Positions 17,019 through 48,900 of a stretch of DNA of 64,000 bases are shown piece after piece. The notes under the pieces were generated by a model, which saw only the letters and a program-made list of their open reading frames with translations, did not search any database and was not told the origin of the DNA. Location of the stretch: NCBI GenBank assembly GCA_903813345.2, contig CAIIXF020000001.1, forward strand, positions 53,523,885-53,587,884, in the 5' to 3' direction. The position numbers and the translations under genes were made by a program. Source of the DNA: Owenia fusiformis (lineage: Eukaryota; Annelida; Polychaeta; Sabellida; Oweniidae). Every line of letters starts with the position of its first letter. The stretch's first letter is position 1.

Positions 17019-20000
17019 GTACAAATATGACAAAAACAAAGAGAAGAAAAATGCATAAATTTTGATTACCGTTGCAAAAAGGCAAATTGCACAATTTATA
17101 TATACAGTATTATGTACATTGATGAAATATTAAAATATTTTTATTTGTGTTTTTCAGTCAAAACAGTAATGAAAACTTTGATTCAATAAGTGTCATCAAG
17201 CCATCATTGCCCTGGTATAGTCAAACAATGGGACCTAAAGATGAAGAGCGTAAACCATTGCTCTACCATGATACCATTCCAGAAGGGAACGAGGACCATG
17301 ATGACACCAACAATCCACTGATTAACTCACACAAACAAGACATTGACCCTAGCCTTAAATCAGAGGCACACATAATGGGGGCCACTAAGACCCGCCTGGA
17401 GAAAATAAAAGCTAAAATCATGGCAATAACGATACCAAAAAAGGCTATAAACGTGATATTATCAGTAACAACAATTTTAGCATTTGTCTGTATGCAAGTG
17501 AGTCTGCCAATGTACACTAAAGCGATGAATGACCAAAGAAGTGACCCATACAATGCAATGTTATTCTCAGCCTTTTGGTTTCCTTGGGTTTTCTTCTTAC
17601 AGTTAGCATTTATCAAACTTTTCATCGATCGAGACTTGAGCTTAAAACCAAAGACCAGCTGGTCTGGGATGTTTATAACAGGAGCTTTAACTGCATTAAA
17701 TGGATTGTTGATTGCATATGCTAGTCTTCCATCACGGACACCTCCTTACTTACAGGCCATCTTCACCACCACGCTTATTCCATTCACGATTCTTGCCAGA
17801 CTTATTATATTGAGAAAAGGTTTGTGGATTTATATATTTCCTACTTTCCTAAATAAATTATGTTTAAACCATCAGTTATTTCAAAAACCTGTATTTATCC
17901 GAATTTGAAAAGTGGACAATTTTTAAGAAAGTCTGGATTTTTGCTGTAATAGTGTATAAAAATACCATTTTTAACTATTCTAATTTCAAAGGTTTTTAGG
18001 AGAAGCATTCATACATGTATTGATATATGTTCATATGAGGTGGTGTTTAAGCAAATTTCACTGTACGTGTCCATGCAATATTTATTTCAGGTGTGAGTTT
18101 AAAACGTGCAGTTGTATGTGGAATAATCCTCATCGGATTGTTCATTTGTATTGAACCTAATCTATTTAATATCAAAAGAGGGGATTCCCATGTGATTCCG
18201 GCCTCTACTGGGAAACCGCACCAAATGTTCTGGCCACTCGTATTTGCTGCGGGGTTTATCCCTAATGCAATTGCAGGAGTTGTCATAGAGAAGGAATTAA
18301 AGCAAGCTCAGGTTTGTTTGGATCAATTGTATTCATCAGCTTGTTTGGTTGCTTGCTTGTTTGTTTGTTTGCTTTAAAGTTGTTTTGTTATTGAATTATA
18401 GGCATTTACTTGGATTGCTTGATTTGTAAAGCTGATTTTGGTGGTGTGCTTTATATTTACATGTTTTGTAGCATTTTAATTTTTTTCAGGTTTGCTTCTT
18501 GCTTGCTTGCTTACAAAAGTTCATACTTAATACAGTGTGAATGAATATTTGAAAGCACCCAATTTGGATCACGCTCAAATATTCATGATTTTTGCATGAA
18601 ATGCTGCACATTCCTCAACTTACAGTATAATACCTTCTTTTTCAGCAAGCCTAATAATATATCCAACATGCTTGATTTTAACCTTGACATTTATCATTAT
18701 AACAACCAATGCCTGTTGCTTACAACATATTTTTGCTTGCTTTCACAGGTGTTAGTAAACGTCAGTTAGTTGTATGTGGGATTATCCTAATTGGTATGTT
18801 CATATCTGTGGAACCCCAGATCTTTGGGCTGGAGAGAGGAGGAGGTGGCAGTGAGGGTATACATGGTATTTTCTGGCCAATGATATTCATGCTTGGCTTT
18901 ATTCCTAGTGCAATAGCTGCTGTTGTCACTGAAAAGGAGTTAAAAAATGAAGAGGTAAATAGATGAATATCGCAGGCCTATACTTACATTGAGGCAAATG
19001 AGGCAGTTGCCTTAATCAGAATGCTGACTATATATGTATGGGCCTGTATGTGTTCATTTGTATAAAAGATTTAAGAGAATGGCTTCAGAATGGCTTTCTA
19101 AAGAATGGCTTTCTTAAGAATGGCTTCATAATGGCTTTTTAGAGAATGGCTTCACATATGGTGTTTAATTGTTTTAAGTTGTGGAACTACCAATGTTAGT
19201 TTCATAATTGAAGATTTTGTGAGGAAAAAATGTTGGGAAAATTAACAAAGAGACTAAGGGACAGCAAATCAACAAGTCAAAAATTTAAAAGTAGTGGGGG
19301 GTGGTGTGATGGAACCAAAACAGATTTTCCACAATTGTCAACATTTAGACACCGACTTTTATTGTATGTGAGATTTTAGTGATATCATTTGTATCCACAA
19401 CTCGATATTGCTATCTATACAAATTAATACTGATATTGATGATGACAAGATGAAAAGATATCACGAAAACATCATAAGATGATTTATTTAGCCCACAGTT
19501 CACATACATAGCTTATTATCTAAAGATGCTTCTCACTTTGTATTTGAAAAGTTATGTCACAGTGGAATCTCATATGTTTGTCAACAAATGTCATATTATA
19601 TGAGCCAGTACTTGACCAAATAAACATATTGTGTACAAATAAGATATATCAAAATATTATATAAATTGCTTTTCAATTCAGACTTGTCGTGGTCAGACAC
19701 TTAACCTATATATAGTTATCATTTAAAAGATACATCAACCGGTTATTTATGTCAATTAAATTTGATTTGTAACATATGACATTTTAATTGACCTTGTACT
19801 AAGAGATAACTATTTTGTAGGCCAACTCCATGGTGTTTATAGCCTGGACCCAAGTCTTCATGTATTCCACAGTCCTTCTCTTGTTCTGGACTGACTTCAT
19901 CCCCCACTTTGGCATGGTAAGTGCTAATTGTTGCTACTTTCAGATTGAATCAGGGTAAACTGGGTTTGATGCCTCAATGTTTCGACTTTTGAATGAAGTA

Positions 20001-21055
20001 TTTGATTTAGGCACATTATAGACTAGTATAGAGGTAAGCACCCTAATCCAAGTGATCCATTCCATGACGCTGGGTTTGTTGATATTCCTATGAATATAAG
20101 TGATCATTTCAGTAAACATGGTGACCTTACTCTTCAGAAATGGAGATAATATTTCCGAACTAGCTGTGACACATATCTCCATTTCCATATGGCAAGGTCA
20201 CCATTTTTACTGGATATGATGTAGAGCTTGACCAGTGAGAAAGGTCCCAAGATGTTGATTGTTGTTTGTCTCTAATTGAGGAAGGTTAACACAATACATT
20301 GCAATAATAATATTCACAGCGATTTAGAATTGTAATGTAGTATGAATATTTGTACTGCAAGACCACTTGTTTTTGAAATTAAACATGTGCATGAAGCTAA
20401 TAAAATCTGCCGCGTATTTGAGATTTTTGATTTTCTATTTTAGGCCACTTCACCTACAGATTTCTTCAATCGCTTCAAGACTGGTCTTGTGTGCCAATTT
20501 GGAATTGATCACAGTTGCAGTAATGTCGCAGGTCTCTCCTGGATGTTTATTCTCTCCTATTGCTTCGCCAACCTCTCCAATTTCCTTCTCATCCGTTATG
20601 CTGAGGGTGCCGTATACTCGGTCGTCGTCATGGCATTAGTAACACCCCTCGGGACAATTTTCTGGAACTTCTTTTCTCTGACCCCAAACTTCCATTTCCA
20701 TCCAAATTTTGACCAGACCAGTATATACGTATTTGTTGGGCTGTTGATCATGACCCCAGCTGTTGTTGTCTATACAGTGTTCAGTATGGAAGAAGAAGCT
20801 GAGGCTGCAATGAAAGAGGCCTCAGAACCACCACCTCCACCAGGCCCTAAAAAACCACATGCAAAAGTGAAGCCTTATGCTCGTAGACATAAGATTAAAC
20901 CTCTTGGGAAGTTGAACGATTTGATAAATAAACGGAGGAAGAACAAAGACGTGAAAACTCCTCTGTTGTTAGACCAAGATGTAGAAGACATTAATGATAA
21001 CACAACTAACAAATCAGCTATACCTCGCAGGGCTAGTAGTCCTTCATTAGTGTGA
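16870..21055 (+). CDS. CRT-like (chloroquine-resistance-transporter family) membrane transporter, complete
   Basis: Member of the drug/metabolite transporter superfamily related to the CRT proteins known from Plasmodium digestive vacuoles and from Dictyostelium, where they sit in acidic organelles. Exons: 16870-17018, 17158-17819, then either 18091-18311 or 18749-18954, then 19821-19916 and 20444-21055, giving 579 or 574 residues. About 10 hydrophobic helices are visible: four in exon 2, two in exon 3, one in exon 4 and three in exon 5. The N-tail has ERKPLL at residues 80-85, an [D/E]xxxLL lysosomal/endosomal sorting motif. The loop after helix 7 has the paired cysteines typical of the family (VCQFGIDHSC). 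Longer than PfCRT (424 residues) because of hydrophilic tails; the C-tail is Pro- and Lys/Arg-rich. Substrate unknown. The family call rests on the FWTDFIPHFG and RYAEGAVYSVV segments and helix pattern from memory, not on an alignment. Confidence 0.88.
17158..17819 (+). CDS. CRT-like exon 2: sorting motif and helices 1-4
   Basis: TTTTTCAG acceptor and GTTTGT donor; 662 nt, entering with one base to finish a Ser codon and leaving one base (G). Contains ERKPLL and helices near AINVILSVTTILAFV, FSAFWFPWVFFLQLAF, MFITGALTALNGLLIAYA and LQAIFTTTLIPFTILARLII. Confidence 0.93.
18091..18311 (+). CDS. CRT-like exon 3a (alternative to 3b)
   Basis: 221 nt, TTATTTCAG acceptor, GTTTGT donor. Encodes VSLKRAVVCGIILIGLFI through FWPLVF-GFIPNAIAGVV to EKELKQAQ: two helices and the loop between them. 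Its loop is five residues longer than that of 3b. Entry and exit phases equal those of 3b. Confidence 0.93.
18749..18954 (+). CDS. CRT-like exon 3b (alternative to 3a)
   Basis: 206 nt, TTTCACAG acceptor, GTAAAT donor, 437 bp after 3a. Encodes VSKRQLVVCGIILIGMFI, then a Gly-rich loop (ERGGGGSEG) and FWPMIF-GFIPSAIAAVV to EKELKNEE. Clearly a tandem duplicate of 3a. Confidence 0.93.
19075..19155. repeat. Short tandem repeat GAATGGCTT
   Basis: GAATGGCTT occurs about six times with 12-17 bp spacing in the intron after exon 3b. Confidence 0.75.
19821..19916 (+). CDS. CRT-like exon 4: helix 7
   Basis: Exactly 32 codons between TTTTGTAG and GTAAGT. Encodes MVFIAWTQVFMYSTVLLLFW followed by TDFIPHFGM, a stretch I recognise from CRT proteins. 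Confidence 0.93.
20444..21055 (+). CDS. CRT-like exon 5: helices 8-10 and C-tail
   Basis: Acceptor CTATTTTAG, 203 codons and a TGA at 21053-21055. Helices near LSWMFILSYCFANLSNFLLI, VYSVVVMALVTPLGTIFW and IYVFVGLLIMTPAVVVYTVF. The tail has PPPPPGPKKP, a basic stretch and PLLLDQD near the end. Confidence 0.95.
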   Translation, partial: ATSPTDFFNRFKTGLVCQFGIDHSCSNVAGLSWMFILSYCFANLSNFLLIRYAEGAVYSVVVMALVTPLGTIFWNFFSLTPNFHFHPNFDQTSIYVFVGLLIMTPAVVVYTVFSMEEEAEAAMKEASEPPPPPGPKKPHAKVKPYARRHKIKPLGKLNDLINKRRKNKDVKTPLLLDQDVEDINDNTTNKSAIPRRASSPSLV

Positions 21056-27749: not shown

Positions 27750-30700
27750 TGGGCAAGTTGTATTTGGATGGCGCTTCTAATAGCTCAATAATTATAGTCA
27801 TCAAGGCAGAGCTTACATATAATTGTATGTATACACCTCAAACAGTGTTTAATTGTATGATAAATAGCTGTTGAAATACATCTTGCATATTCAATCAGTA
27901 CTTTTCAATAATATTTGATACCTTTTGAGACAAATGCCTAAAATACAGGTTAAGTGTCATTATTTTGTTCAAAAAGTTTTGTTCTTTTCCACCATTTGAC
28001 TAGAGAAAGTGTGTATTTACATATTAGAATAACTTATTTGTACACAAATGTTACCTTAAGCCCTATCCCCTGTACAGGTTTGGAATTAGAATATTCATAT
28101 TAAAGCAATTTTGTTACCTATACACAGCCAACCTGAACCATACAGTACCATACAGAACCTTATCAGGCAGGGGTTTAACTAGAATTTCTCACAACAGGCT
28201 ATATAAATGAAAACAACAGGCAAAATTAATGGAAATCATGAATTTAATATGGAAAACAACAGGCGATTTTGTGAAAACAACCAGTGAAAATCATCTGTTG
28301 CCTGCTGCTAAAGAAACCCCTGTCAGGTGAGGTACAGTACAGTGAAATACAGAACAACACTGTTTTCACAAATGTTACCATTATCCCAACATTATATATA
28401 GTATTGTGAATAGGTACCATGATTTCAGAGTGTGGATTAGGGTTGTACATAACAATATTATGAAAACACTATAAGGTAATATTACATCATAAGTAAAATA
28501 CAATTTCATATAAGGTGGTGGTTGTAATCTCCAGCATATAATAATCTCACGGATGGGCTACATTATACTTACACCCAAAATACAATATATTATTGTTATC
28601 AAAATGTTTGTTGTAAAAACAATAGGTTTCTCTTTGATATTTCAGTGGCTCCAGACATACTCAATAATGTTCTGTTTGGATTTATACATCAACTTTGAAA
28701 TTCAGGATTTCTTGTTATTGCGTAATTCATTGCATATGATCTCAATGTTAGTCAAGCACTAAGTACAACATCAAGTTTGATCACTCCCTTGAAAATGTAC
28801 AAAATGTCTAAAAATCTAAAATCTCATTCCAGTCCTTCGTGTCCTCATATGCTCCAAACAACTTCTACACTCAGAATACAAAGTTTGAAACAATGCTTAA
28901 CAACCTTGTTGCATATAAAGCTTAAACATAAGACACATTATGTGACTAAAAACCAAACACTCATAGCACCCTCATTAATGCCTCATTACATACAATTAAG
29001 CCTAATGCCTTGGTCACATTTGCTCCGATTTTCACTACGGCGCCCAGCCAATTGAGTATTTTGTTCAAAATTGAATACAATATTGAACAAAACATTTAAT
29101 CGCCCAGGCGCCGGCCGATGAATCGGGGCAAATATTACCTTTCATTATCATGTTACAAAAACTAAATACTGAAGAGTAAAACCTGTTTACGTGAGCACTT
29201 CTCGAAGAACATCTACAAATCTCAATCACTTTTCAGTCAATTTGTCTTCATAACTCCAATGTTATCAAAATCTCTTCAATTCATCCCTGTACTGTTCGAT
29301 ATTGACAAATTCTACTGTTATAGCATTGATACATTTTATTGTGATCTATCGTTGGTGAATATACCATAGCACCTACCAACTGGCACCTACACGTATGTTA
29401 TATTTCTAATAACTAATGCTGATACAAATGAAACGAAATACTGTTATCACACTTGAATATATTGATCAAATCACAAAACTCATAGTGCAAACAAATATTA
29501 AAAGGACTGCAAAGACAAGAAGAGAGTAAATTGAGAAAATTGTCACAGTTTTACAATATTTTTGCTCTCATCATTCCATTTTATGACTATTTTCTAAAAC
29601 ATCGAAAAGTTGACTACATTTCAGGATGATCATTTGAAGGTTATCCACCATAAATCTAAAAAGTGAACTCCGTTTATTTTCAATTCTTATGAATTTAGAC
29701 ATTCATGCATCTTGTATCTTCAATAACTTTCATTTGATTAAATACATGTAAATGTATATCAGTTTCAGAAAATGAAATTAGAATTGTAAGGGAAATATTG
29801 GCATATTTTTGAAAATACTGCTTATTACATTTTACACTCTTTAGTCTCTACTGCCTCTTTAATTAATAGTGATTCACATTTAGATTTCATTTTCTGATGT
29901 AATCGATGGAAAATCAACTTGAAAGTAATATTTCTGCAAATATGAATTTAATATTAAATGCAATATCCCAAATGTGTTAGACTAAATGCCTATATGCACA
30001 TATTATTTTGCACTTTACAATGTACATTCACCCTGCAAAAAAAATGATATATACCGATTCAAACCACTTGAAAAAAATTGAAAAGTTAAATTGCAGGTTT
30101 AAGGGTTTTCAATGTATTTCACATCAATCAAATTTTAAGTGAAAAACAGTCCTTCAAGAAAAGAAAGATGAAAAAAATATTGCATTGCCTTTAATCAGAG
30201 AGAAAATGCTTATTTACTAAATGTGCCAGGTATATTTATAAATCTTGATACCCAACATAAGACCAAAATTGATATAGTATACAATCATATTAAGTAATGT
30301 TTTACATTTAGAACATGTGGTTAAATTAAGTACACCCGCCCCTAACATATGTACATGATTGTATAGTTTCTTTGCAACCGCCACTACGCAACAACAAATG
30401 AGCAAGCATCTTTGAGAAATATCAGCAGTGTCTATATATAAAATACATTTATGTAAATTAACTGATCCCACGAAGTATCGATTCAACCTTGCATTTTTAA
30501 ATCACTTTAATATAGATAATACACAACCATTATTTTGCAAATTTTGTCGAAATCGAGCCTCTGCCTCCCCCCATAATATATATTTCCCCCATTAGAGAAC
30601 ATGGAGGGGGCGAGACAGGGGTTTGATTTTAATTTAGTCTACAGTCAACATTATGCTAATTAAGACAATGCAATCTAGCACGCAGGCTAAATAGAGTGTG

Positions 30701-30795: not shown

Positions 30796-30951
30796 TTATG
30801 GGTCTACAAAGGAGACCATGATATATCGAACTCCACTGGTTGTTCTAAGTCCCTCATGATAGTGAGTGAGACGACCAGGGTGCATGAGGGCCCAACCTCG
30901 ATGTGGTGAAGTTATGCTGCAATTGTAGCGTAAAAATCTGCAGCCTCCACC
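30796..30951 (-). CDS. PLOD: PLOD last exon 18b (distal)
   Basis: 51 codons and TAA; TTTTCAG acceptor. [20 protein letters not shown], then [20 protein letters not shown] and FVDP. Cys692 and Cys699 are both present as in LH3 (Cys691/Cys698). Exactly the same length as 18a. Confidence 0.96.
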
Positions 30952-33900
30952 CTGAAAATGCAGCATGAAAAACATACAAATCAATTGATTTACTGGTTTC
31001 CAGAATGACAATATTGTGTAATTTCTAAATTACAACCTTCCTGTTTCTAGATCTCTTCATCTATATCTTATAAAGTTCTCACTTAAGTACCTCACTCGTA
31101 CTCCAAAGCTTTCTATATCGAACACTACATTCAATCATTTTTTTCATTTGCCGACAATCATTTTTTCTCAGTTCTAAGCTACATCAATGCATTAGAGTTC
31201 GAGTAATACAATTCTACATGAAGCTGCCCTTTGCAAGACCTCACTAAGAATGTGAAGTTGACTACATTAAGTTTTACCAATTAATAATATTTATTTGTTA
31301 AATGCATCTTATTTAAGGTCTAAAAGAGACCATGTGTGAACATATGTATAACTTAACATATAACATATGTATATACATGTAGTACATTATCACATATGTA
31401 ACCCAGTGTACATATAAGGGTGAATTGGTTTATCATGGGTCTACAAATGAGACCATTATATATCTAGTGCCCTTAGTGACAGGCATGCCCTCATGGTAAT
31501 GTGTGAGGCGCCCTGGGTGCATTAGGGCCCAGCCCCTCCGAGTGGCCTTCATAGAACAGTTATACCGTAGGAACCTTGGCCCTCCTCCCTACAAAAGTAC
31601 GATACATATCAGTATGGTATCATGTGCCTACATTCTCAGCTTAGTCTGGTAAATTTCAGTTGTATATGGTATTTTGGAGTTTGGATTGTTTTGTATTTTT
31701 GAATGTTGCCCTTTATGGTGAATCATTAATCATGGATGTTCTGTAGTTGAGTAAATTTCTATTTTTCTTAGAGCCCCCCCCCCACATTTCCTTTTAAAAC
31801 ATAGTTCTTTAATTCTAAAAGCCAACTTGCAAGAGACCTCATGGTACTCTGAACTTTTGAAATCTTTGCAAGGGAAAAGAGAAATGGTGATGAACTTAAG
31901 GTATTTAAAAGTGAAAATTATTTACAAGACTAAGCATTAGAATGGCCACCAAATGATGAAATTACGCTTACCTCAAAAAAACAGCATGAGGCATCATGCT
32001 GTATTCCATGAACCGTTCACTAAACTACATTTGGTTAGCAACTAAATGTTTTGCGATTTAGCTCTCACATTAAAAGAGGGGTTTACATGATCTACAGTCT
32101 AGAGAACTATTTTCCTTATTCTATGTAGAGCAATGTGAAATTATCTGCTGCACAGTTAGGATGAATGTTAGTATTTAAGAAAATTTCAAGAAAATATTAA
32201 GGAGAGGAGATAGAAAAAGAAGGATGTCAAGTCCAAAGAGTGTACAATATATAAGGTTAGGTATTAAAGTATGTCGAAAATAAATATTTTTTGTATGGGA
32301 AATCAAAACTTGGCAAAGTGTAGGTGAGAAATTAGAAGACAGTCTAACGGTTAGAATTAACACTGCAAAGGCTGCAAATAATTTGCAAATTGCTCATACC
32401 TTGGTATATAGATGATCGATTTAGTTCACCTGGCATTGCTTGCTTTTGAGAAAGATTTGTTTTTAAATAAATAAAAAACTGACTGAACGAACTGTCTGAA
32501 ATTAAAACATCGATCAGGTGAAATAGGAGATTGATGACGTTGATATCAACATACCTCATAATCAACGCCTACACGATTCAAAGCTAAGTTGATGGTAAAT
32601 GTGGAGGAGTCATGATGTGGCCGAAGGAGTGGTTGTTCATCTGGCTTGTAGCGAACCACAAAGTTCATAATGGCATTTGACTGAAAAGTAAATTAATGAA
32701 AAATCAGTCCATTTCACACAAAACCAGGTATTCTAGATATAGATCTTGAAGAATCTGCAAATTACAATTCATCAAGATTTTGCGATATCGCACTTCCTAG
32801 CAAATCCTAGCATGGCAAAATGTCATCAAGTGTGTAAGTATGACAATTGTTACAGATGATAATAACGTATACCAGTACAAAAATGGTGGTTACTTAATTA
32901 AGAAAACAGGTCCCTGGTTCAGAATCTATGAAGAGTAACAGATTCAAAAATAAATTTTATATAACAGTAAAAACATATCATTTCAAGTTGTGCCTAATAC
33001 CCAGTGATTGACTGACAGCTCAATTGAAACTGATGCCATATAGTCAATTTAAGGCAATTAGCCAAAAATCCATATTTTACGAATCATTTTTATAGACAAT
33101 TTTTTCCTTGCAAAACAATTTAAGTCATCTCTACTAAAACATTCTCATTAACACTATAGCAATAAAGCAAAAAAATACATGCCTGTTGTCTAATTCAATC
33201 CTACATCAATTAGACTATTTCTGTTGGTTAATAAAAAGTAAGTCAGTAGATGTAAATGAAGAAGTAAAACAGATAATACAACAAGATAGTATGGAAGTTC
33301 AGTTAGATGGTTTGGATGAATAAAGCTTTAGTTAATTCATTAACTAGTTAGTGCAATACAACTAAAAGCTACATGGGCCATAGCCAGAAAAGAGGCAACT
33401 AACACAATCAATAGCTCTTGATCATTTTAAATTCAAACACAGTGTAGAGCCTAAATCCTGGCTATTCAAAGGTGAATAACCTAGTTGCAAGTAGGTAGTT
33501 TCCAATTTCCAAACCAGCTGCTAATTCGGGTCAGATAACATGGGAGACATAGAAAAAATCTCTTGTAACTTAAATTGATTTAGAGAACCTTTTGGAGTTT
33601 AATAATTATACAATTTCAAATGTCTTTAATTATCGTCTGCTCAGCAGAACAAGAAAAGACATTTCACTTCAATCTCATGATTTCCAAACTTGGGCTATAT
33701 GGGGAATCTATCTAACCTAGAAATCACATTTTCAAAGAATATCAAAATTACAAAATTGATAAACCTTGTTTTTGAATGTAATTTTTTATGTAGATTTCAA
33801 ATAGGAGATTGAGATCCCATTTGACTAAATTTCGAGTATATAATGATGAAAGAATATTTCTACTTGCATCTAGTCTATTGGGGAAAGGTGATTACTAATG

Positions 33901-36900
33901 AGCTTACATCTGTGTAATACCCAGGGAAGGCCTTCAACTGTATGGGTGCTATAAACTCCTTGAGGAATTCAAGCCAGGTTTTCTCCAATCCCACTTGTTT
34001 CATATGAATGTCTACTGTTGGAACATTCTCATAACCAGTAGATAATCGGGAATCCTGGATGGAGAAAAATCAACTTGACATAAAATCTATATTAGGTGCT
34101 ATAATATTAGTTATTCTGGACATAGAATCATAAGCTTTATATACATCTGTATAACACCAAGGAGTTGTAATGTACACCAGCCAAACTGAAATTATTCATG
34201 TACATAAAACCAAGATGTTATACATATGCATAAAAACTTATGCTTGCAAAGATGCCAAAATGCAACAAGCCAAGCTGCCACATCCACAGCTGCCTATTTC
34301 TTAGTCCAAACAAGCCTAAAATTAGAGGGTGTCGGTTTGAGTCATGATTGGTAAGAGGGGTGTTTCTTGTCATGGAATCCAGGAAGTCCTACCCTTGTGT
34401 AAAAGCCTGGGAACGCCTTCAGACTGACTGGTGCTATGTAGTCCTTCAAGAAAGTCAGCCAGTGGGGTTCAAGGCCAACCTGGTTCATATGGATGTCAAC
34501 AGTGGGGACATTCTCATAGCCACCTGCTAGTCTCGCGTCCTAGATATACAAACAATGTTACATTTTGACAGAATATCAAAACTCATCATGCACCAATTTA
34601 AAAACTAGACATAATTCAAAATATGTCTTCAATTTGGTCATATACTGAATACTAGACTATTATTAATATATAATGTAATATATATAAAACTTAAACAATG
34701 TGTAAGCACAATAGCTGAAGGGAACACACCAAAGTACTAAAGAAATTGCTTTTACAATTTTAAATCATTAAATAAAAAAAATACTATCTGATGAATGCAA
34801 GGACGACAAATTAGGGCTTAGTGGTTGGAAGACTGACTCGTGTACTCGAGTTTTACTCGCATTTGTCCTAAAAATCAATTGATCGAGTTGAAAACTTGAA
34901 CTCGCGATTTGAAATGTTTACCAAAAATTATTTTTCACTCGTTTTCACCTTACCTTGACTCGCGATTCGTCTCTCCTATTCGCAATTTCCATGCTTATAG
35001 TTGTAATGTTCTGCTTAATCTGTATAGAAAACAACTTATTTTCTATTTAATGCCATGTGCGGAAGACAAACATACTCGGATTTTATTCTGCGTTCGTTAT
35101 TTTTATGCAAAAGTTTCATTTCCGGTTTGATGCATTCTGGGAATATCCAACAGCCGGGAATTTTAAAATATTTGTCTACCGCGGTGCATCCTGGAACTTT
35201 CTGGATTGACGAAGTTTGTTTTCACTATTTATTCGGTAAGTTTTACTATCTATAGGGGACTAGCGGTGAACTTTAACGATCTATAGGGATGTGCAATACG
35301 ATTTAGACAATAAAAAGTATAAAGGCACTTGAAAGACTTGATCAAATTGATGAATTCTGCCGCTACTTCGGAAACTGAAACAGAAAAGTAACTCAACTAA
35401 GTCAAATCGCGATTATAATCGTGGTTTTTCATGGCCCACTCGAGTGGAGATTTTCAGGCGAGTCCGACCACTATTAGGGCTCCAATGATTTTCAAAATTT
35501 CTCAGTTCCGTTTCAGTACACCATCAGAGCAATACAATATATTTCCAGAGGCATGAACTGAAAGTATATTTCTCTCCGGAACATACCTCATTTTTGCCCC
35601 CAGACCACCCTTTTCCGCCGTCATGCGTCTCCATGATCTCAATAAGGTGTTCACAGTACTCAGGGGTCACAACAGGGTACCAGTAGACATCAGGGCAGGG
35701 TTGTGTCAACTCTAGCTCATTCAGGTGCTTGTAGTAATCTGGGTGGATGTATTTTCTCTCCCAATCCTAAACAAAAAGACTGAGTCAATATTTGAGAACT
35801 TCACTCAATAAATTTCGACTCATATTGTTGTTTTCATTAGAGCAACCCACTATCACGCACACTCCCTCACTGGAACACTTTTAGAGGTACCAAAGATGTT
35901 CCATGTGTGCAGGTTTTACAAATAATTGCACTCTGTCAAAGATTACTTGTATTGCCACTCATGAAATTAATAGAATCGAATCAATTAATCAGGGTGAGTT
36001 GTGTCACTAAGTAAGAAATAGCCTAGTTCAGAAATATGTCACTAAACATACTTTGTAAATTTAATCAATCTTGGGAATATACACAAACCCTTGTGTCACC
36101 CACTCATTGTATATGTATATTGTATGTGTTTTGTGAAATAAACAAATTGAAATTGAAATATTTTGATAAGCTACGTCAATTGACTATGGTGGATCATCAT
36201 AATGACATGCTCCTTTCAACCTTTTAGCTTCATCACCTTAGAGCTTGTGTCAAAATGATGACAGTTTTGGAAATATTAAGTTGATTTCATAATGGTTTAA
36301 CATCCACCCTTGTATTAACTAAAGCATTTATTTATTTGCACTGATGCCCAACAGCCAAACATATATCCAACAATACATAAAATATTACAACTTTACAATA
36401 TTTTCATATCACAAAAAATGAATTTTAAAATGTTGATTTGCCTTTCACTTGAATCATTCAAAAAATCATCATTCCTCATTTATACCCTCAAGCCAAATGA
36501 AATAAACATCATTCTTCCATTTCAACACCATCCATTATGTGTACCTGTCTGTTGTCAAACATCTGGTACATCTCTTCATGGACGTGCGTTGGATCAACAT
36601 TGTCACTGTTGATCAGGTGACCATAGTCGTCAGCTTTGTTCATCACATACATGAACACACCCTGGAATAAAATCAGAGTCATTTTTCATTCAAGACATGG
36701 TTACTTGATGGTTGTGATTGGTTGAACACAGGTCTATTGAAATGAACATATCATACAGTTTTATAGTCAACCTTGTTCATCACATACATGAACACACTCT
36801 GGAATAAAATCCATATTCAGATCATTTTTCATAAAAGACATGATTGCTTTATTATTCTGTGATTGGTTGAATGTAGCTATCCTTGTCAGTAGCATACATG

Positions 36901-39900
36901 GACACATTCTTGAGCAAAATCATGATCATGTGAATCTTCAAACAAGACATGGCATCTTCCTATATAAATAAATACTGCATTTGATATGATTTATGTATTT
37001 CTTCATTATTATGTCACAGCTCACATTTCAGTCCCTTTGGTAGGAAAACAACAATAAGAAAAGAAACATCATCTGATATTGCTGAATCAAATACATGTGA
37101 ATCATTTAACATGATAATCAAATCAAATAAAATCGACAAAAAATATATAATGTACCTTATCTCTAAGTGTTTTGCAGAAGGCCATATCAGGGTCCAGGTC
37201 TCCATTGAGAAAAGCTCCCCTAAGTTCCTCCAGTCTGTGACCATGCACTAAGATAACATTGGCCATGTATGGAACATTCCAGATTCCTCTGAAAATGCGA
37301 AATATTTAATTATTTCTTTGAGCGATCAGTGGGAATTACACTGACTTCCAAGCTATCAGAACCTCTCAATAGTTGGATTTACACAACACTACACTTAGCT
37401 AAAATGTTTTAGTGTTAATATTCCAAGGATTTTCATGTATTGCGCTGATCACAAGGATTTTTGTATGAGCTCTAAGCGAATCCCACTTGGAATGCTTCGA
37501 ATATTGCAAATAGGTCCAATGGGTATTTGAATGCTAAATATTAAAATATGAATGTTGCTTATATCTTAAATAAACCTACTTTTTTCTGTATTCAATAATT
37601 TCCATGTAGTCATCAGAACGTTTATAGAAACCATCTCTCCCTATAGCACCCCAGAAATTGGACCAGAGCTTGCCAGGACGCATGATCAATGGGGCAATAA
37701 CTGATCTGTTCTGTTCTATCAATGTTGTCAGTACATTGGCATTGTCTAAGTGAGCCTCACTGTCCAGCATGAAGAAGTACTGGCAGTTGATATTGATGCA
37801 CTCATCACTGGAACATATATTCAATTATGTTTGTATGCACTTAAAGCCTCAGTCACATTTGGTCATCGTATATCAGCCATACACAAAATCGATATAGAAA
37901 ATCAACATTGTATTGCTTTTTATCTCTATATCTTATATTACTCTCGATTTTGGGAAGCTACGGTCACCGTACGGATGCTGTAGATCAAAAGTGATTGAGC
38001 CATAGGTAAAGCACATTTTTGTGAATTCTCGTTTTATAGTATTTCAGCGAGCCAATTATATGACATCAACGAACAGTTTCTAGGGGTCACACGGTTTGAG
38101 ATTTCACGGTTCGGTTCGGTGATTGTATTTCACAGTTCGGTTCGGTTCTGATTGCGGTTCTCACGGGCCTCGTGAAATGAGCAAAAATATATGAAATTGA
38201 TCCGAAAATCAGAAAACATACTAAGTGTGTCACAGTGTTTTATTGTATTCAGTATTGTAAGTATCCAGTTTCACACAATGTTTGTTTGTTTGTTCAGTCT
38301 TTTTTCCCTCCCTCCCTTCAAAAATATCTGTGTGTTCACTGTGTTGATCTTCTTGTTTGATGTTCAAATTTTTTCAACACAAAATAACTTGTCAACTGTT
38401 GGCAAAATTACTTTGTCAGGACTCAACATGGATCAAAGGCGAACGTAATACACAGAACGTGACTCGTTCGCAAATTCAATGCATTCGGCGTTCGGCTTTT
38501 TACAGTATACTGTTCTATCAACCAATAGGATTGTGCGAAATGTTTAGCGTAGGTCCAGGAGGAGTGAGTAGCTCCCATAATTCTTTCATATTCTATCGTA
38601 TTCGGGGATTCCCCATTACATCATCTCTTGCATCATCTCCAATCAAATTGCAGGATTCGATCACGTGAACAATCATGGGCACATGCTCTCTCAGTGCTGC
38701 GCATGCGCAGAGTTAAATTTTAAATCGTGAGAATGGCGTTTACATCAGTTCAACATCGTCATTTCAAACCTACGGTAATACTATTGAAGTTACTCGATCC
38801 ATACTTGTAGAGAATACTCATAAAACTACAGTGAACATTTGGAGATCCATTTCAACGGAAAATTGAGGCCTGTTTATAAAATTTGTTTTCGAACGTGCTA
38901 ATATGATAGGGCATCTTTGGGAAATCTCCCCCCCTGGCATAGGTCACTTCCAGGTCAATATGCCGGTGAAATTTATCAACATTTTCCTTTTGTTTTTGTT
39001 ATCTGCCGTCTATATCAGAAGATCGTCGTAAATATCAGGTATGTTTCGCATTATTGCATGATGATTAACGATTCCAGACGATGTTTAGTTAATTGGTATT
39101 ACACGAAAGCTTGAAATGGAGTTTAATTCCGAGTTTACATTTTTATTTTTCTGAAGTGAAACTGAAAATGTCACGGTTCTTCAAGAACCGCGGTTTTCAA
39201 GATTGTGTGCGAGCTAACCGTCGTGGAGGTATGAACCGCGGTAACCGCAAGCCACGGTTAACCGTGTGACCCCTAACAGTTTCCATGTCAAATCGATTTT
39301 AAATGATGTCAAGGTATTATACTTACATGGCCATATTTTTGGCTTTCCATTGGTTAATTTTACTCTCGGGTGTATATTGAGTGACGGAGGCATAATCATT
39401 CTGGTGTTCTAGGAGGAACTTATTCACATCTTCAGTATGGTAAGTATCCTGCAAATAGATAATACACATGACATATTGCACAATGCATATTAGTACAGTG
39501 TGACAGGGTCCCAAGAGGGAGGTTTTAGAAAAACAACATGGTACTAGTAACTCAAAATTCAATTTTGACCAGTAGGTGTGAAATCCTTACTACACCCTGG
39601 CATATACAAGAATATTACCTTACCAGGTGTCTTTTCCTAATTCCAAGATTATCATAAGATAAATAAATTACAACTGAAAAATATTTTTACTTACAGTTCA
39701 AAATGTGATACAATGAAAAATGGAATTTCAAAGAGTTAGAATCTAACTTACAGCATAGTGTAGAAAGATGTCAATTCTGCTCTTGGGGTATTTCAGAGCT
39801 GCTACCTTCTCAAAGAACTCCTTAATGAAAGGTGTTGGTCTTTCAATAAAGATACTAAGGAGAACCTTGGGATGATCTTCTTCCTATAACAAATAAAAAA

Positions 39901-42900
39901 AAAATGATCTTGTTACAACACTTCTAGGCTCAGAGGTTCCTAAATTCCTTAAATGTAGTTTTCTAAAATTCTAAATCTACTACAATTTTAACAACAAAAT
40001 TTAAAATAAATCAGACTCATCAAATAAATACACAACAAAATATATAAATGTTGTCACACATGCATTTTGCCACAACATTATTAATAGTGGAGACAGGAGA
40101 ATACAAGTGTTTCCTAACCTTGAGTCCATTGATGGAGATGGTGTCTTCTTTACAACCTTGACAGCCATTGATTGGTGTCCAGTGGTCTACCAGGTAGTTG
40201 TTTAAAGCATTGAATTCAGGCTGGAACCAAATACATATAGTTGAAATTACACATGCAATCTAGATTGAAAGCAATTTTCCATTCAACTTTAACTTGAAGT
40301 TATTATCCCCAATTGTAAAATGTTCCATAACAAGAAGGACAACTTAACTGAGAAAGTTGCATTGAAGAAAGTACCTTGATGGAGTCATTCTCATGTTACT
40401 TGTACTTGTGATCTTCAAGGTTTTGGATAAAGTTTAGGAAGTTGATGCTTCGTGGTTCAGAAATGTAGGCAAATTACAAGCTATATATGTTGTACCTTGA
40501 TGGGGCCATTTCCATGAACTACCATAGGTGTGCTCCCAGAATATGTGTTGTACAGAAAGCTGCTTCCTCCCTTAAACTTCAGTTTGACCTCATCTAAAAC
40601 AATTACATACATCCAGGATTTTACAGCTGAGTAAGCATTATCATAGATACAACAAGGCATTAACATGCAAAATGTCACCACCAGCCATATGTTACAGACA
40701 CTGAACACACACCACCAAACTCAGACCATCGAACACCAATCACCAAACATTCACCACTGAACACCATCCAACAAAATATTTTATCTTGTGGTTATCACAA
40801 CCCTTCTATCTATCCATATTCATGAAATATCTTCTTATTAATATATTATCTGACAACAAAATTATATTATTTAAAGATAAAATTGCCAACATTACCTAAT
40901 GCACCATGTAGATTTTGGAAGATTTCATTCTTGGTGTCCAACTTGATTGATAGCTGTTTCTGAAATTATATGAAACAAAATTAATCTTTTTCATTCTATC
41001 CTTTGGTATTTGAGAAATAATAGAACTGCAGTAAGAACTAAATAGCAATCACAAACCTAGTTTTGTTAAAAAAAAATATCTTGATTTTTCAATATTCTCT
41101 ACGATAAATAAAAAATGATTGTGTTACATCCTCTACAAGGTTTTACTGGGATTCTCAATCATAATGGGCTACTTACCCTAAGATCTTTATTGAGGAAAAT
41201 CTTGGTGTAGAAGAGTTGGTCATCATCCTCAAATCCGACAGCTGAACTGGTCAATATAGAGTATATTTGTGGGGCATAACCCATGAATCCTGAAAACAAC
41301 ACCATTTGTAGATGATAAATATATAGTCCTATTCTATATCTCAGAGGCCATGTGAAAATATCTTTTCTGTAGAAGTAATTTGAAAAGAAAAGAAAAACAT
41401 ATTTCAACATAAGCAACATATTAATACATACCCATAAGCTAATCAGAGAAATGGGTCTAATCCTTTGTTTTTATCTTGCGAAAAAATGAACCTTTGTAAT
41501 ATATGTGAGTGAAGTGAAGTTTTACTTTTGGCATGAAATGACACATATGATTATTCTGAGACTTCCAGGATAAAGGACACTTCAAAAGTGATTTTTGGTA
41601 CTTTGCAACTTGTTTTTTGTATTGTAACTTTTAATGACACCCTGTACAACTTTTTGGAAAAAATTGTAACTTTCTCGGTTGTCAAAATATTACATCATGG
41701 ATTCTGTATGTAATCTTCAAAATAAGACAATGTGAACTTTGTGATGATCACTGGCTTAATATTATAACTTTTGATTTATCAAATACTATGCAGCCAAGTA
41801 AATGTAATATTTATTGTACATTACTATGTAGTAATAATGTTTCATTGGCCGTTCATGGCTTTATAGCCTTAAAAGGGAGCACTAAACTCTTACCTCCAGA
41901 GTTCAAGTACCTCTTCTCAGTCATCTTTACAAGTGGATAATCATCCTGGAATCACAATCAACCATCACATAAAAAATTAGCATATAACTTTATGCAATAA
42001 TTTCAATGTTTCTCTATCCCATTTGATTAATCATGTAAAATAAATATGCATCATTTCATTAAAAAAAATGTTAAATTCATGATCATTTTCAATAACTGCT
42101 GAATGGACATTATTTTGATATACATTGTACATGTACTTCAGGATGTGACCCAATGCTTTACAAAACATATCTTCAAGAACACATGTACCAACCATTAGAT
42201 CTCTATCAGGCCAGCAAAACCCTTCTGCAGAGAACACAACTTTGGAGTTCATCTTTTCGAATGCTGCCAGGATATCTTTTTCACCACTTGTGAACACAAG
42301 ATCATAGCTGAAAATAGAAGATAAAAGAAATATTTGAGATGATCTAAAATTTGAGTGTAACAAATTGGCTTGAAATTTTAGGGTGAGGCGAGTCAAAAAA
42401 GTAACCCAAATAAATATTAATAACTCAGTCAGTTAGCCAGGTGTTCAGATATACAGGTTTCACTGTATTTTTTTAACAATTGGCAATCCTGGTATTGTGT
42501 TGTATACATATGCTCTACTTTATCAGAATTTCAAAGTGGTACCAATTGATTCTACATGTCATATTGATATGCACAATAGAATAAGCAATTTTTTATTTTG
42601 ACAGTTTTGATAAATTGACTAAATCTGAAAAAGATTGCTCACTTACACAAATAGGGTGTTTCGTGAGGGTTTTCGATATACTGGTCAAAGATAAACAATG
42701 AAAGAGAAAGCTGGATTAGACTGAAAGAAACTGATCAGGACCATTTGACTCTTGCTTATGTCACACCCTGGACACAAATGTTTTAAGGACAGGTGGAAAA
42801 AAACATTTTGGTAAAAAATTGCTATACCTGCACATGTTATTTTCTGGTACACTATAAAGTATGAAGGCATGTGTTAAATTCCTTGCTTTTTTCAGGAAAG

Positions 42901-45900
42901 TATTATTACATTGTCTTCTTTTAGTATATCTGGTAAGAGGTGAATGGGAACTCCAGGAAATTCTGATATTTCACACTTTCTATTTTTCCAAATTTTCTTT
43001 CAAAGTTTCCAGACAACACAGGAGCTACCATTGACCTGTTTCCATGTGCAGGTATAGCAATTTTTTACCAAAATGTTACTTTCCAGCTGAACCTTAAATC
43101 ATTGACATAAATTTTGAACATGTACTGACCTGTCAGTGAACATGACAATAAGGTCCTCCCTGTCTTTATACTGCTCCATGGCCTCCTTCAATAGTATGAT
43201 CTTGTGACCACCTCCAGTTCCCATCTCCATATCTCCTCCCTTCCACTCCTCTCCCAGACCAAGGGTCTAAATTAAACCACATAGTAATATAAGGGTTACG
43301 TCCTACTGGGAGGATGATACGGTAACATAAAACGGAAAAAAAATCTTAATCCTAAAGAGCATAGAAAGAGTCTTTACTCGCTACAGAGAGCTACAATATA
43401 TAATTGACATTTGAAAACAATATCAATTATTATAACCAGAACAACGGCAACACCAAAGCGTAGCGAATCCCATCGAACAGAAATGGCTGGCATTTTTACA
43501 AACGAAATATACAGCAAATATCATAAAAACACACCAGAAAGGCCACCATTTTCAAAATGGTTGCTCACTAGCCAAGTTATCATCAGAAGAAATAATATGC
43601 TTTTAAGTAGCCACCTATAAAATTTTTGAAAAATCGCACACATGTACTTGTAAAATAACACACATAAAAATGGTGGCCATTTTTCAAAATGGCCGACTAC
43701 ACCCCAAAGTTTTATTAGACAATGTGCCATGCTTAGAGTATTCATATATCAAATATGAACAAAATCGCTCCACTACTTTTCAAGTTATAGTAAAAAATGT
43801 AAAAATGACAGCCATTTTTTAAAATGGCCGCCTACTATCTGAAGTGTCATGAGACAGTGTGCAATGCTCAAGCTCGTAAGTATTCACATATCAAATATGA
43901 ACTAAATTGCTTCACTACTTTTCAAGTTATAGTAAAAAACGTAAAAATGGTGGCCATTTTTCAAAATGGTCGCCTACTACCTAAAGTGTCATTAGACAGT
44001 GTGCCATGCTTATAGTATTCACATACCAAATATGAACAAAATCGCTCCACTACTTTTCGAGTTATAGTAAAATATGTTAAAATGGCGGCCATTTTTCAAA
44101 AAAAAATTTCAAAAAGTGTCATAGGACAGTGTGCCATGCTTATAGTATTCACATACCAAATATGAACAAAATCACTCGACTACTTTTCGAGTTATAGTAA
44201 AATACATTAAAATGGCGGCCATTTTTCAAAAAAAAATTTCAAAATGGCCGCCTTGTACCAAAAGTGTCATAGGACAGTGTGCCATGCTTATAGTATTCAC
44301 ATACCAAATATGAACAAAATCGCTCCACTACTTTTCGAGTTATAGTAAAATATGTTAAATTCTACCAAAAGTGTCTTTAGACAGTGATCAATGTTTATAG
44401 TATTCACATACCAAATAAAAACAAAATCGCTCCACTACTTTTCGAGTTACAGCAAAAATCGTAAAATAACGAGTAAAGGCCGCCATTTTTTAAGATGGCT
44501 GCCATGTGCTTTTTAATATCTACATTTGTAGTTTTATTAATGTCCTTTATAATTTTTTTACTCTAAAAACATATTGCTATTACAGTTTTACATATTGCAC
44601 CTAAATTACTGTAAAATCGGCACTAAAATGGTCGCCATTTTGAAATGAGCGGCCATTTTGAAAATCGGCTTTCGAGCAGAACTCCTACCCCCATAGGGTA
44701 TATGTGTACAAAATATGAACAAAATCGGGCCAACGGTATTTGAGTTATTGCCCGGACGGACGGACGGACAGACGGATGGACTGACGGACGGACGGACGTA
44801 CGTACGTACGGACGGACGGACGGAGGCGTTCCCTATATCCCTCCGAACTTCGTTGGATGGGATAATAATATAGAGTTGAATCTCTGTCATATTATTGAAT
44901 ACCATATGCAAATAGATTTAACACGGGTAACTAGAGTATCCGCGTATATTGAGTATGACCGGTTCTAAGCTTACGAGTGTGACCGTATTTCTGTTCCTAT
45001 AAACAGACGAGGTGAGTACTTGCTTTTTATGAACACTTTCGAACGTTTTCTTTTTATCCTACTTGGTCAATGAATGATACTTGGTATACTTATAATGCCA
45101 GGCATATCACAAGGGGCCTTAATCAAGAGAAAACGTATTAATATTAGATTGAAGCCGTAAAATCCTAGTTTCCAGCATCTTTGATCAGTTTTTGTGTAAC
45201 ACAACGCAACTCCGAAGAGGATGACACATCTTATGTATAATATATAGCTAGATCTACGAATTAGTCATGAATATTTTAAATAATTTAGCCTGCTCTGTCC
45301 AAATATGATACATCTTTGAATTTTTGAGAATACGAATGTCACTGGTGCCCCATTATTGGAGAATACGGTTGTGAAATGTCTTGGATCGGCATTTAACCGG
45401 TGTTTGGACTTTTAGCGGTGACAGATGCAAAAGGTAATTCGAAATACCAGAATGTTGAGGCTCTTCAGACGCTTTCAGTAGGTCTCCAATATAAAGTGGG
45501 AAGAACTAAATAAGACTTATAGTGTCAAGAGCCTATTTTTTCCAAAAGAATTCAGTTAAACGTAGACCGAAAACAATAGCCTTGTTTGATTATAATTATG
45601 TTGTCCCATTTCAGACCTTTTGTAGATTTGTGGTTAAATCAGTTGACCCGATTTCAGAATGTTGGCGAAAGTAATGCTTTTAGAACATTTTTTATCGAAT
45701 TTCAGTAATATAATAAGACAGGTTTTATACCAATACATTACAATGCATGGAAAGAAAAGTTTATCATGTATTTGAAAATATAAACATATTACTTTGTAAC
45801 CAAATTGCTGAAACTACACATTTAACTTAAAATACAACATTTTTCAGATGGCAGCATCAGTAACACCTCTTATTGAGGAGCTTGACCTCAGTGTCATCAG

Positions 45901-48900
45901 TGTTGGCGCAGAAGAGGAAATGCAGCATATTATGTACCTGGATGAAAACAGAAATGAACTGGATAAAATTTGTCAGTCTACCCATAAAGGTATTCAACAG
46001 CTGATTGGTACTAGCGATCCCGATGCCACAAAACGCAAGATACTGTTGTGCGCGTTGTGTGAATTTAACACCACACACAAAAATAGTCTTACAAAGCATA
46101 TGTCCAGAAAGCACACCTCTGTTTATGATGTTTTTGAATGCGATCAGTGTGGCAAGATTTATAAAAGCAAGGACACCTTGAACGATCACGTTCGAGGGTA
46201 CCATAATGGAGAGTTTAAGTGATCTCAATGCATACACTCGTATTCTACACCGGTAACATTCCGATCACATCAATCAGTGGGCCGTGTTACACTCGTTTCC
46301 ATGACATTTCACAAGCGTATCCTCTGGGAAAAGATAAATCCTTCTCTTGCTCACTCTACGGGGGATCATATAAACTGAGATTTGGAGATCTTGTTCAGGT
46401 TAGCCATAAAAAGGTTTGGGATTTGTTTTTTTCTACTGTGATATTAATGATTTGGCTCTAAGGCGAGAAATCTGTACTTTCTGATTGATATTCCATTATG
46501 AACAGTTACATTGCTAAAATAGCTCATGTTTAACATTTTTTTGTTACATTACTATTAAATACAGCATAAACTATATTCAACAAACACAATTTCAAAAAGG
46601 ATAATATAGAAGTTAACCTTTATTTTCCATTTTTAAGCAGCTGTGCCTCTCATGACTTTCCAAAACAGGTTATATTCGTAGCCTAAGAACCGGTCATACT
46701 CAATATACGCGGATACTCTAGTATCCCGTGTTTAACCTAAACATTACCTAACCCAACAAAGCGTTAAATTTGATGAATGTTTAGTTTTTGATAAAAAGAA
46801 CATTTTACAAAAATGCTACAGCTGGCCAGATATATTGTATAAATACTGTATTGACAAAAGTTTGGGTATTTTAAAAAGTTCTAAGTCACTGAAAGTTTTA
46901 AATGTTGATTTATAATCAAATTATTCTACCTATAAAGGTAAACACAAATAATCTTTGGGGTATAGCTAATTTGTTTTCACTTTGAGACTAAAAAATGCTC
47001 ATTTCAGCAGAAATAAAGGTCTTATTTTTTTGGAAAATAGGCCCAAATTTCCACAAAGTATGACCTTTTTCAAACGAAATGGCTTGTGGGAGTGTGGGTC
47101 TTCTTATCATATTGCTGAAACAAATTAAGATTTTCAACTCACCTTGACACTGAGACCATATTTCTTGGTTGACCTGATAAACCTCTTGAAGCCATCAGTC
47201 TCTGCTGTGGCAACTGTGAAGACAAGCAACTCTGAAACCAGAAACCAACAAGTGATATACATGCATGTAGAATGTAGAGAAGTAGAAAGTCAACATACTC
47301 TTTTAGTCTTTTCTTTATTTTCTTCTATACATCAAGCATAATCATATATCAGGAACATGAATGTCTGACATGTCAAAAGATTGTTTTTATGTGGCGATTT
47401 CTCATTAACTGTTGTATTCAGAACTGAAATAAAAGACTGAATCTTCAAGAATTATTACAGAAAATTGCCTTGTATTCAGTATAGGTGTATGAACATACAT
47501 ATTTGATACCTTGTCTAACAACACAACCCCCCCCCCTTCCCCCCAAACCGGCCCCCATATCCTACTCAGATTCTACCTTTAACTTTATATGTGTAGATCG
47601 ATAACTTAAGGGAAGTTGTGAAACGAGAAATAAGATATATAAAAACTAGTTTACATTGTATATATGGCCATGTGCACAATTCATAAAAACATATATAGCT
47701 AAATGCCCAAAAGCATTTATTTAAAAAAAATTATGTGAACCCCCCCCCCCCCTTGAATTTTTCAAAAAGTGAAACCTCCCTTTGCAAATCCTGGCTACAG
47801 GCCTGATACATATAGTATACAATATACTATAAATTTGGCACCATAATGAGTCACTATTCACCCACAACACTGGAAAGAAGAAAGGAAACCAGTTCTCAAA
47901 AAGTTGCCCAAGATTTATCCATATAACTAATGGATAAATACAGCTGTAGTACTAAATACATGTAAATATAAGTAAGCAATATAGAAAATAGAGTTATGAA
48001 CATTTCAAAAGTCATTGTGTTTAACATAATATTATGTAGGAAATGCCAGTCTTAAAATAGATAATGAGGAAGTAAATTATCTGGATATTTATGTCATATT
48101 TATGAGTAAACATTGCCTTAACATGTCACATGGAAAACATAAAGATATAATTTGTAGGAGAAGAGGTTTGGGAAAAACTAAGTTTCTATAGAAACAATGA
48201 AAAACATATTCACTGAAATGAGTACATGTCTCCATGAGTGCATTTGTTTTTAGACAAATACATGTTTTACAGCATGTACTATAAGATTAGATGACCTCTG
48301 AAATCCCAGACATCCTTCCTTCCTAAAAGGCTAATACCTCAATCACCTATATATCAAACTCTCAACAACCACAGAAGCCACATATGATGTCTATGCTGTG
48401 CACATAGACATGTATACCGGTACATATATCTAATGTGCCCAAGAGCTTCAAAATGGCCAGGTAGACCGAATATCCAAATAATCAGAAAACCAATTTCCTT
48501 GAATATATTTTGATTCTTGATTTTACATCCCTAGTGCATCCTTCAATTCAATCCAGACAGATTTAAGGACAAAAAACTAAAAATGGCCCTTCAAGTTTTC
48601 CTACTTCAAAAACTTATTACTAATCTATACCAATCTAATAGTTTTAGAATTACAAAGGACTTTAGTATCATTGAAGTAAAAAATCATAAAGACAAAATTC
48701 AGTTTTAATACACCAACATTTACAAATAAAGTTTTGTGATAACTGTTAGGTTAAGTTTCAGCAGAATTCAGCATCATTTTTCATTTTTCTTACTTGTGTG
48801 AATGAATGGCCAACAAGAGTAAATCATAACAATACTGCTGTACTTTACTAAAATGAAATGGAGAAGACTAACATAACATCTCTCTTTGGAATGCCTATAA

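Follow-up and report, generated by a model that had tools for sequence, protein, structure and literature searches.

In the procollagen lysyl hydroxylase (PLOD) gene of Owenia fusiformis, the part encoding the hydroxylase domain contains two pairs of tandem homologous exons. One pair is internal (16a/16b), and the other consists of alternative last exons (18a/18b). The gene was located in the window, i.e. the whole stretch of 64,000 nucleotides analysed in this study. Judged from the DNA, both pairs are real and old-looking, and apparently functional. We regard it as probable that they are mutually exclusive exon pairs, through which the hydroxylase site of a single multifunctional PLOD would be tuned. 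Tandem homologous exons as such are of a known kind; their placement in the active site of a lysyl hydroxylase, twice in one gene, was not found described.

The PLOD gene lies on the minus strand and runs from approximately 47.2 to 30.8 kb of the window. As located, it extends over positions 30796-47229 (minus strand) and comprises glycosyltransferase (GT), accessory (AC) and lysyl hydroxylase (LH) exons, which are numbered here according to the scheme of the preliminary description. No location within the window was assigned to exon 1, and a small exon sought between 39326 and 37779 yielded a single unconvincing candidate. When concatenated, the GT exons gave a match of 271 bits to human LH3 (query 1-253 of 256). 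For the concatenated AC and LH exons, which are approximate at some edges and without one small unlocated exon, the match to LH3 reaches 527 bits (query 4-439 of 439). Exon 1 and the small exon aside, the domain order GT-AC-LH and the similarity to LH3 along the protein are those of a PLOD.

The Fe(II) ligands and the 2-oxoglutarate Arg expected of such an enzyme were found. Exon 17 (32555-32680, minus strand), of which one copy was found, encodes the HxD iron ligands as HHD (LH3 His667/Asp669) as well as Tyr656, and the third Fe(II) ligand, His, and the 2-oxoglutarate Arg are encoded by both 18a and 18b. Cys691 of the 2-oxoglutarate pocket is provided by 18b, the residue in 18a being Pro. In the GT half, the glycosyltransferase DxxD motif (TDSYD) is intact. 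Exon 15 (35587-35766, minus strand), the start of the LH domain as aligned, ends with the residues GGKNE and has Asn (35590-35592, minus strand) in place of LH3 His595, a ligand of the second metal. Three of the four residues of the second metal site (His595, Asp597, Asp611, His613) are thus present; this site is regulatory, distinct from the catalytic iron, and is not taken here as a defining feature of the family. It is called fully conserved in the LH family in the part of the 2018 structure paper available (PMC6082870).

A genome search returned four matches, three of them to exons 18b, 18a and 17 of the window; the fourth is a weak match to a distant oxygenase-like frame on C12 (E 0.028). 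With exon 16 as the query, only the two copies in the window were matched. At the search sensitivity used, the genome apparently contains a single PLOD locus, which would be the only collagen lysyl hydroxylase gene of the animal.

The preliminary description had reported two terminal exons encoding 51 residues each, 40 of which agree, and this was confirmed at the positions stated. Exon 18a, the upstream alternative, occupies 31433-31588 (minus strand) and consists of 51 codons and TGA, with a second stop, TAA, next to it. Exon 18b, the downstream alternative, occupies 30796-30951 (minus strand) and consists of 51 codons and TAA. Each has an AG acceptor, is in phase 0 and measures 156 nt with the stop, and the translations from 31588 and 30951 both end with VSFVDP. 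The pyrimidine content at positions -20 to -4 is 65% for the 18a acceptor and ranges from 53 to 82% for ten other scored acceptors. It was rightly stated that both exons retain the His that binds the iron and the Arg that binds 2-oxoglutarate; the numbers 720 and 730 given for them follow a numbering specific to the preliminary description and correspond to LH3 His719 and Arg729. The Pro noted in 18a where 18b has Cys also holds, and falls on the position of LH3 Cys691, which is Cys in human LH3 and in mimivirus L230 as well.

At the DNA level, 101 of 153 nt are identical between 18a and 18b (66%). Identity amounts to 83/102 at codon positions 1 and 2, compared to only 18/51 at position 3, i.e. 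33 of 51 third positions differ versus 19 of 102 first and second positions (Fisher P = 2.6e-8). The Nei-Gojobori comparison gave a pS of 0.83, which is saturated, and a Ka of 0.19. The 300-nt flanks of the two exons show no clear similarity, since 25 of 200 shuffles scored as high upstream and 52 of 200 downstream. In simulations of neutral drift of one exon-18 copy by only 0.4 substitutions per site, 3000 runs retained at best 35 of 51 residues, compared to the 40 observed, and 18% of the runs were stop-free. Four rates were simulated with 3000 runs each, and none of them reproduced an identity of 40/51. Saturated synonymous sites, the low Ka and the outcome of the drift simulation together indicate that both copies are constrained; each appears to have been kept as protein-coding for a long time under purifying selection. 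Exons, frames, splice and stop signals and this long selection on both copies can be read directly from the DNA. The long selection and the intact signals support the earlier claim that 18a and 18b are two functional alternative last exons.

A second tandem pair, absent from the preliminary description, is as clear as the first. Exon 16a (34393-34539, minus strand) and its tandem copy 16b (33908-34054, minus strand) have 49 codons each (147 nt, phase 0-0) and cover most of the gating loop. The gating-loop and second-metal residues Asp597, Arg599, Gly602, Asp611 and His613 are kept in 16a. In 16b, Arg599, Asp611 and His613 are kept, and AGG of the gating loop is changed to STG, which places Thr at LH3 Gly602. 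The copies are identical at 36 of 49 residues, with a pS of 0.76 (Ks-saturated), a Ka of 0.25 and an excess of differences at third positions (P = 4.4e-5). Residual similarity was found in the flanks upstream of exon 16 (1 of 200 shuffles as high) and none downstream (195 of 200 as high); going by the upstream similarity, the 16a/16b pair may be somewhat younger than 18a/18b.

In the order 16a-16b-17-18a-18b, the two pairs flank the HxD exon 17. A block duplication of exons 16-18 was rejected on account of this order and because the search for a further copy of exon 17 found none. Within each pair the exons are adjacent, homologous and coding, share phase 0 and are of equal length (147/147 nt and, with the stop, 156/156 nt), and coding constraint was found for both copies, as is characteristic of tandem duplicated exons. 

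No internal stop occurs in any of the four combinations 14-15-16x-17-18x. The frame is also kept when both 16a and 16b, or neither of them, are included (tested with 18b), and exclusivity of this pair is therefore not enforced by the frame. Due to the stop in 18a, 18a and 18b are exclusive at the protein level whenever 18a is spliced in. The intron between 16a and 16b measures 338 nt, which is too long for exon exclusion by crowding. A list of 20 inverted repeats was obtained for a stretch of 5 kb; no convincing pairing of the docking/selector type was picked out among them, in an inspection with neither a control nor a cross-species comparison.

The explanation that we propose starts from two presumably old tandem exon duplications in the LH domain of a single PLOD gene, an internal one (16a/16b) and one of the last exon (18a/18b). 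We infer that one exon of each pair would be used per mRNA. For 18a, splicing would proceed to the first acceptor and the transcript would end there, and for 18b, 18a would be skipped. Up to four enzymes could be formed in this way, with the glycosyltransferase half and the HxD core in common. The swapped parts would be the gating loop (Gly602 or Thr) and the wall of the 2-oxoglutarate pocket (Cys691 or Pro). As exons 16 and 18 are located on either side of exon 17, gate and pocket wall could be exchanged while the HxD core is kept. The effect would be a tuning, e.g. of cofactor affinity, gating or substrate choice, and not a loss of hydroxylase activity.

The exchanged residues were compared with two relatives only, human LH3 and mimivirus L230. 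Exon 18 has 22 positions common to 18b, LH3 and L230, and 18a differs from these at two, Cys691 to Pro and a Leu to Met. At the 14 positions of exon 16 common to 16a, LH3 and L230, 16b likewise differs at two, Gly602 to Thr and a Tyr to Phe. Conversely, each exon has one site at which LH3 and L230 agree with 18a or 16b but not with the other copy.

Cys691 and Cys698 had been described at first as a pair near the active site, a view that we do not uphold. In the available text of the LH3 structure paper (Scietti et al. 2018, PMC6082870), Cys691 is termed free and is a residue of the 2-oxoglutarate pocket that positions the 2-oxoglutarate carboxylate toward Arg729; the loop 590-610 is the gate. 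The viral L230 has Cys691 but not Cys698. A disulfide or redox pair of the two cysteines was rejected on these grounds as unsupported, and the Pro substitution therefore points to cofactor handling instead of a lost disulfide. For the gating loop, the accessible part of PMC9120662 lists the Bruck syndrome changes Gly622Cys and Gly622Val of LH2b; Gly622 is three residues past Arg619 (older numbering Arg598). By residue arithmetic (Arg599 plus three), LH2b Gly622 corresponds to LH3 Gly602, which would place the Thr of 16b at the position affected in this human disease.

Instead of tuning hydroxylation, the exchanges of Cys691 for Pro and of Gly602 for Thr could also cripple it. Exon 18a, exon 16b or both would then yield a hydroxylase-weak or hydroxylase-dead PLOD with its GT half kept, and the choice of exon would set the balance between hydroxylating and glucosylating collagen. 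We hold this to be possible but doubtful. It is in line with the loss of the cofactor-positioning Cys691 in 18a and of the Bruck-hotspot glycine in 16b, and with a GT half that matches LH3 and has an intact DxxD motif. Human LH3 truncations without His719 lose hydroxylation and keep GT/GGT activity, as reported in the portion of PMC6082870 at hand, and the hydroxylase and glycosyltransferase activities are therefore separable. Moreover, splicing of human LH2 already alters glucosyltransferase activity via exon 13A (PMC8055892, available in part). What speaks against a crippled enzyme is that 16b retains Arg599, Asp611 and His613, and that 18a retains His719, Arg729 and 20 of the 22 positions common to 18b, LH3 and L230. 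The kept iron ligand and Arg729 lean weakly toward an active site in 18a; with few changes overall, the retention of two particular residues is unsurprising.

More doubtful still is a bolder form, in which the choices at exons 16 and 18 would be coordinated and form an ancient splicing dial for the hydroxylase site of the only PLOD. The combination 16b/18a would have a stiffer gate and a pocket without Cys691, and would show weak hydroxylation or an altered response to 2-oxoglutarate, iron or redox conditions while still glycosylating collagen. If this were true, splicing of one invertebrate gene would accomplish what is distributed over LH1-3 in vertebrates.

It is very improbable that each pair includes a relic copy, or one that is hardly used, conserved-looking but functionally a minor by-product. 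Duplicates do arise and decay in this gene, where the start of exon 14 has been copied in part and the copies have decayed; for the exon pairs, however, Ks is saturated, Ka is low, splice sites are intact, stops and frameshifts are absent, and neutral drift never gave the identity observed for exon 18. Identities to human LH3 are 30/49 for 16a and 30/49 for 16b, 42/51 for 18b and 39/51 for 18a. Sites at which one copy alone matches LH3 number six for 18b and three for 18a, and three for each copy of exon 16; neither copy is therefore simply a decayed version of the other.

An assembly artefact, or collapsed haplotypes or paralogues placed side by side, can be dismissed: no point was found in its favour, and against it stand the DNA difference of approximately 34% between the copies of exon 18, the flanks of exon 18 without clear similarity, the one locus in the genome search and the presence of two separate pairs within one gene.

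Divergence between the copies is approximately equal to their divergence from human LH3, and for exon 16 it is somewhat less. Either the duplications would be very old, or the copies would have diverged fast after duplication. With a mutual divergence about as large as that from human LH3, the pairs may belong to a system common to a large animal lineage.

A polyadenylation switch between 18a and 18b had also been proposed, based on an AATAAA located between them. The hexamer is indeed present (31290-31295, minus strand), 138 nt past the stop of 18a, and is a candidate poly(A) signal. The switch is plausible but unsupported. As 0.6 AATAAA are expected by chance in the 481-nt gap, the occurrence of the hexamer is no better than chance, and it was discarded as evidence for the switch. 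Past 18b, ATTAAA (30628-30633, minus strand) follows 163 nt after the stop as a further candidate poly(A) signal; for this one hexamer, the chance expectation over the stretch is 0.16.

Among known systems, human LH3/PLOD3 (PDB 6fxk, 6teu, 8zgc) shares with the Owenia gene the GT, AC and LH domains, the iron ligands, the 2-oxoglutarate Arg and Arg599, Asp611 and His613. Unlike LH3, the Owenia gene provides a choice of two exons for two separate parts of the LH domain. Position 691 is Pro in 18a and Cys in 18b, position 602 is Thr in 16b and Gly in 16a, and position 595 is Asn. The mimivirus L230 LH domain (PDB 6ax6) aligns over the hydroxylase domain and has HxD and Cys691. It differs in being a viral gene without Cys698. 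We know of no exon choice for L230. Pattern scans of viral contigs (14 and 70 matches) and of prokaryote genomes (47 matches) returned no relative; both were run with no positive control, the viral scans did not return mimivirus itself, and the results are uninformative on absence.

Human PLOD2, with its exon 13A (LH2a/LH2b), also forms isoforms through alternative splicing. According to the accessible part of PMC8055892, however, the 21 residues encoded by exon 13A belong to the accessory domain, and the exon has an effect on glucosyltransferase activity; it is not a duplicated homologous active-site exon. In a human set of 236 tandem duplicated exon substitutions (PMC9741552, as far as available), homologous exons are adjacent and differences are mostly conservative, as in Owenia, and 77 of the 236 events swap C-terminal regions. 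The human regions tend not to overlap small-ligand sites, in contrast to the Owenia pairs, which are located at the cofactor pocket and the gate.

In the open-access literature searched, no report of duplicated exon pairs in PLOD was found; subscription papers were mostly outside this search, and an earlier report is possible. Exon pairs are unmentioned in the available part of PMC5120351, and 'PLOD' is absent from the main text of the tandem exon duplication papers PMC9013439 and PMC9741552. Lysine hydroxylation affects the cross-linking of collagen, and in humans the same gating loop is a site of disease-causing mutations. Two natural versions of gating loop and cofactor pocket, both under long selection, would provide a ready-made test of the roles of Cys691 and Gly602. 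Owenia PLOD would also be a test of how one gene could supply functions that vertebrates split among three.

Several other features were observed in the window. The start of exon 14, which lies at 36661 in the real exon, has been partially copied in tandem at 36881-36951 and 36766-36871 (minus strand). The copy at 36766-36871 corresponds to the 5' end of the exon (81% identity over 107 nt), keeps the acceptor and encodes 15 residues before an in-frame stop; it is a decayed or possibly a poison exon. Inside a PLOD intron, on the opposite strand, positions 45812-46222 (plus strand) contain an open frame of 136 amino acids that includes a zinc finger of the C2H2 type (Pfam zf-C2H2, 1.9e-7). Several diverged repeat copies, which are 61-75% identical, lie in a PLOD intron at 43519-44748 (minus strand). 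Exon-like frames at 17126-17908 and 20444-21055 (plus strand) resemble parts of a multi-pass membrane protein, and the former alone gave a weak CRT-like match (PF08627), which is below the cut-off.
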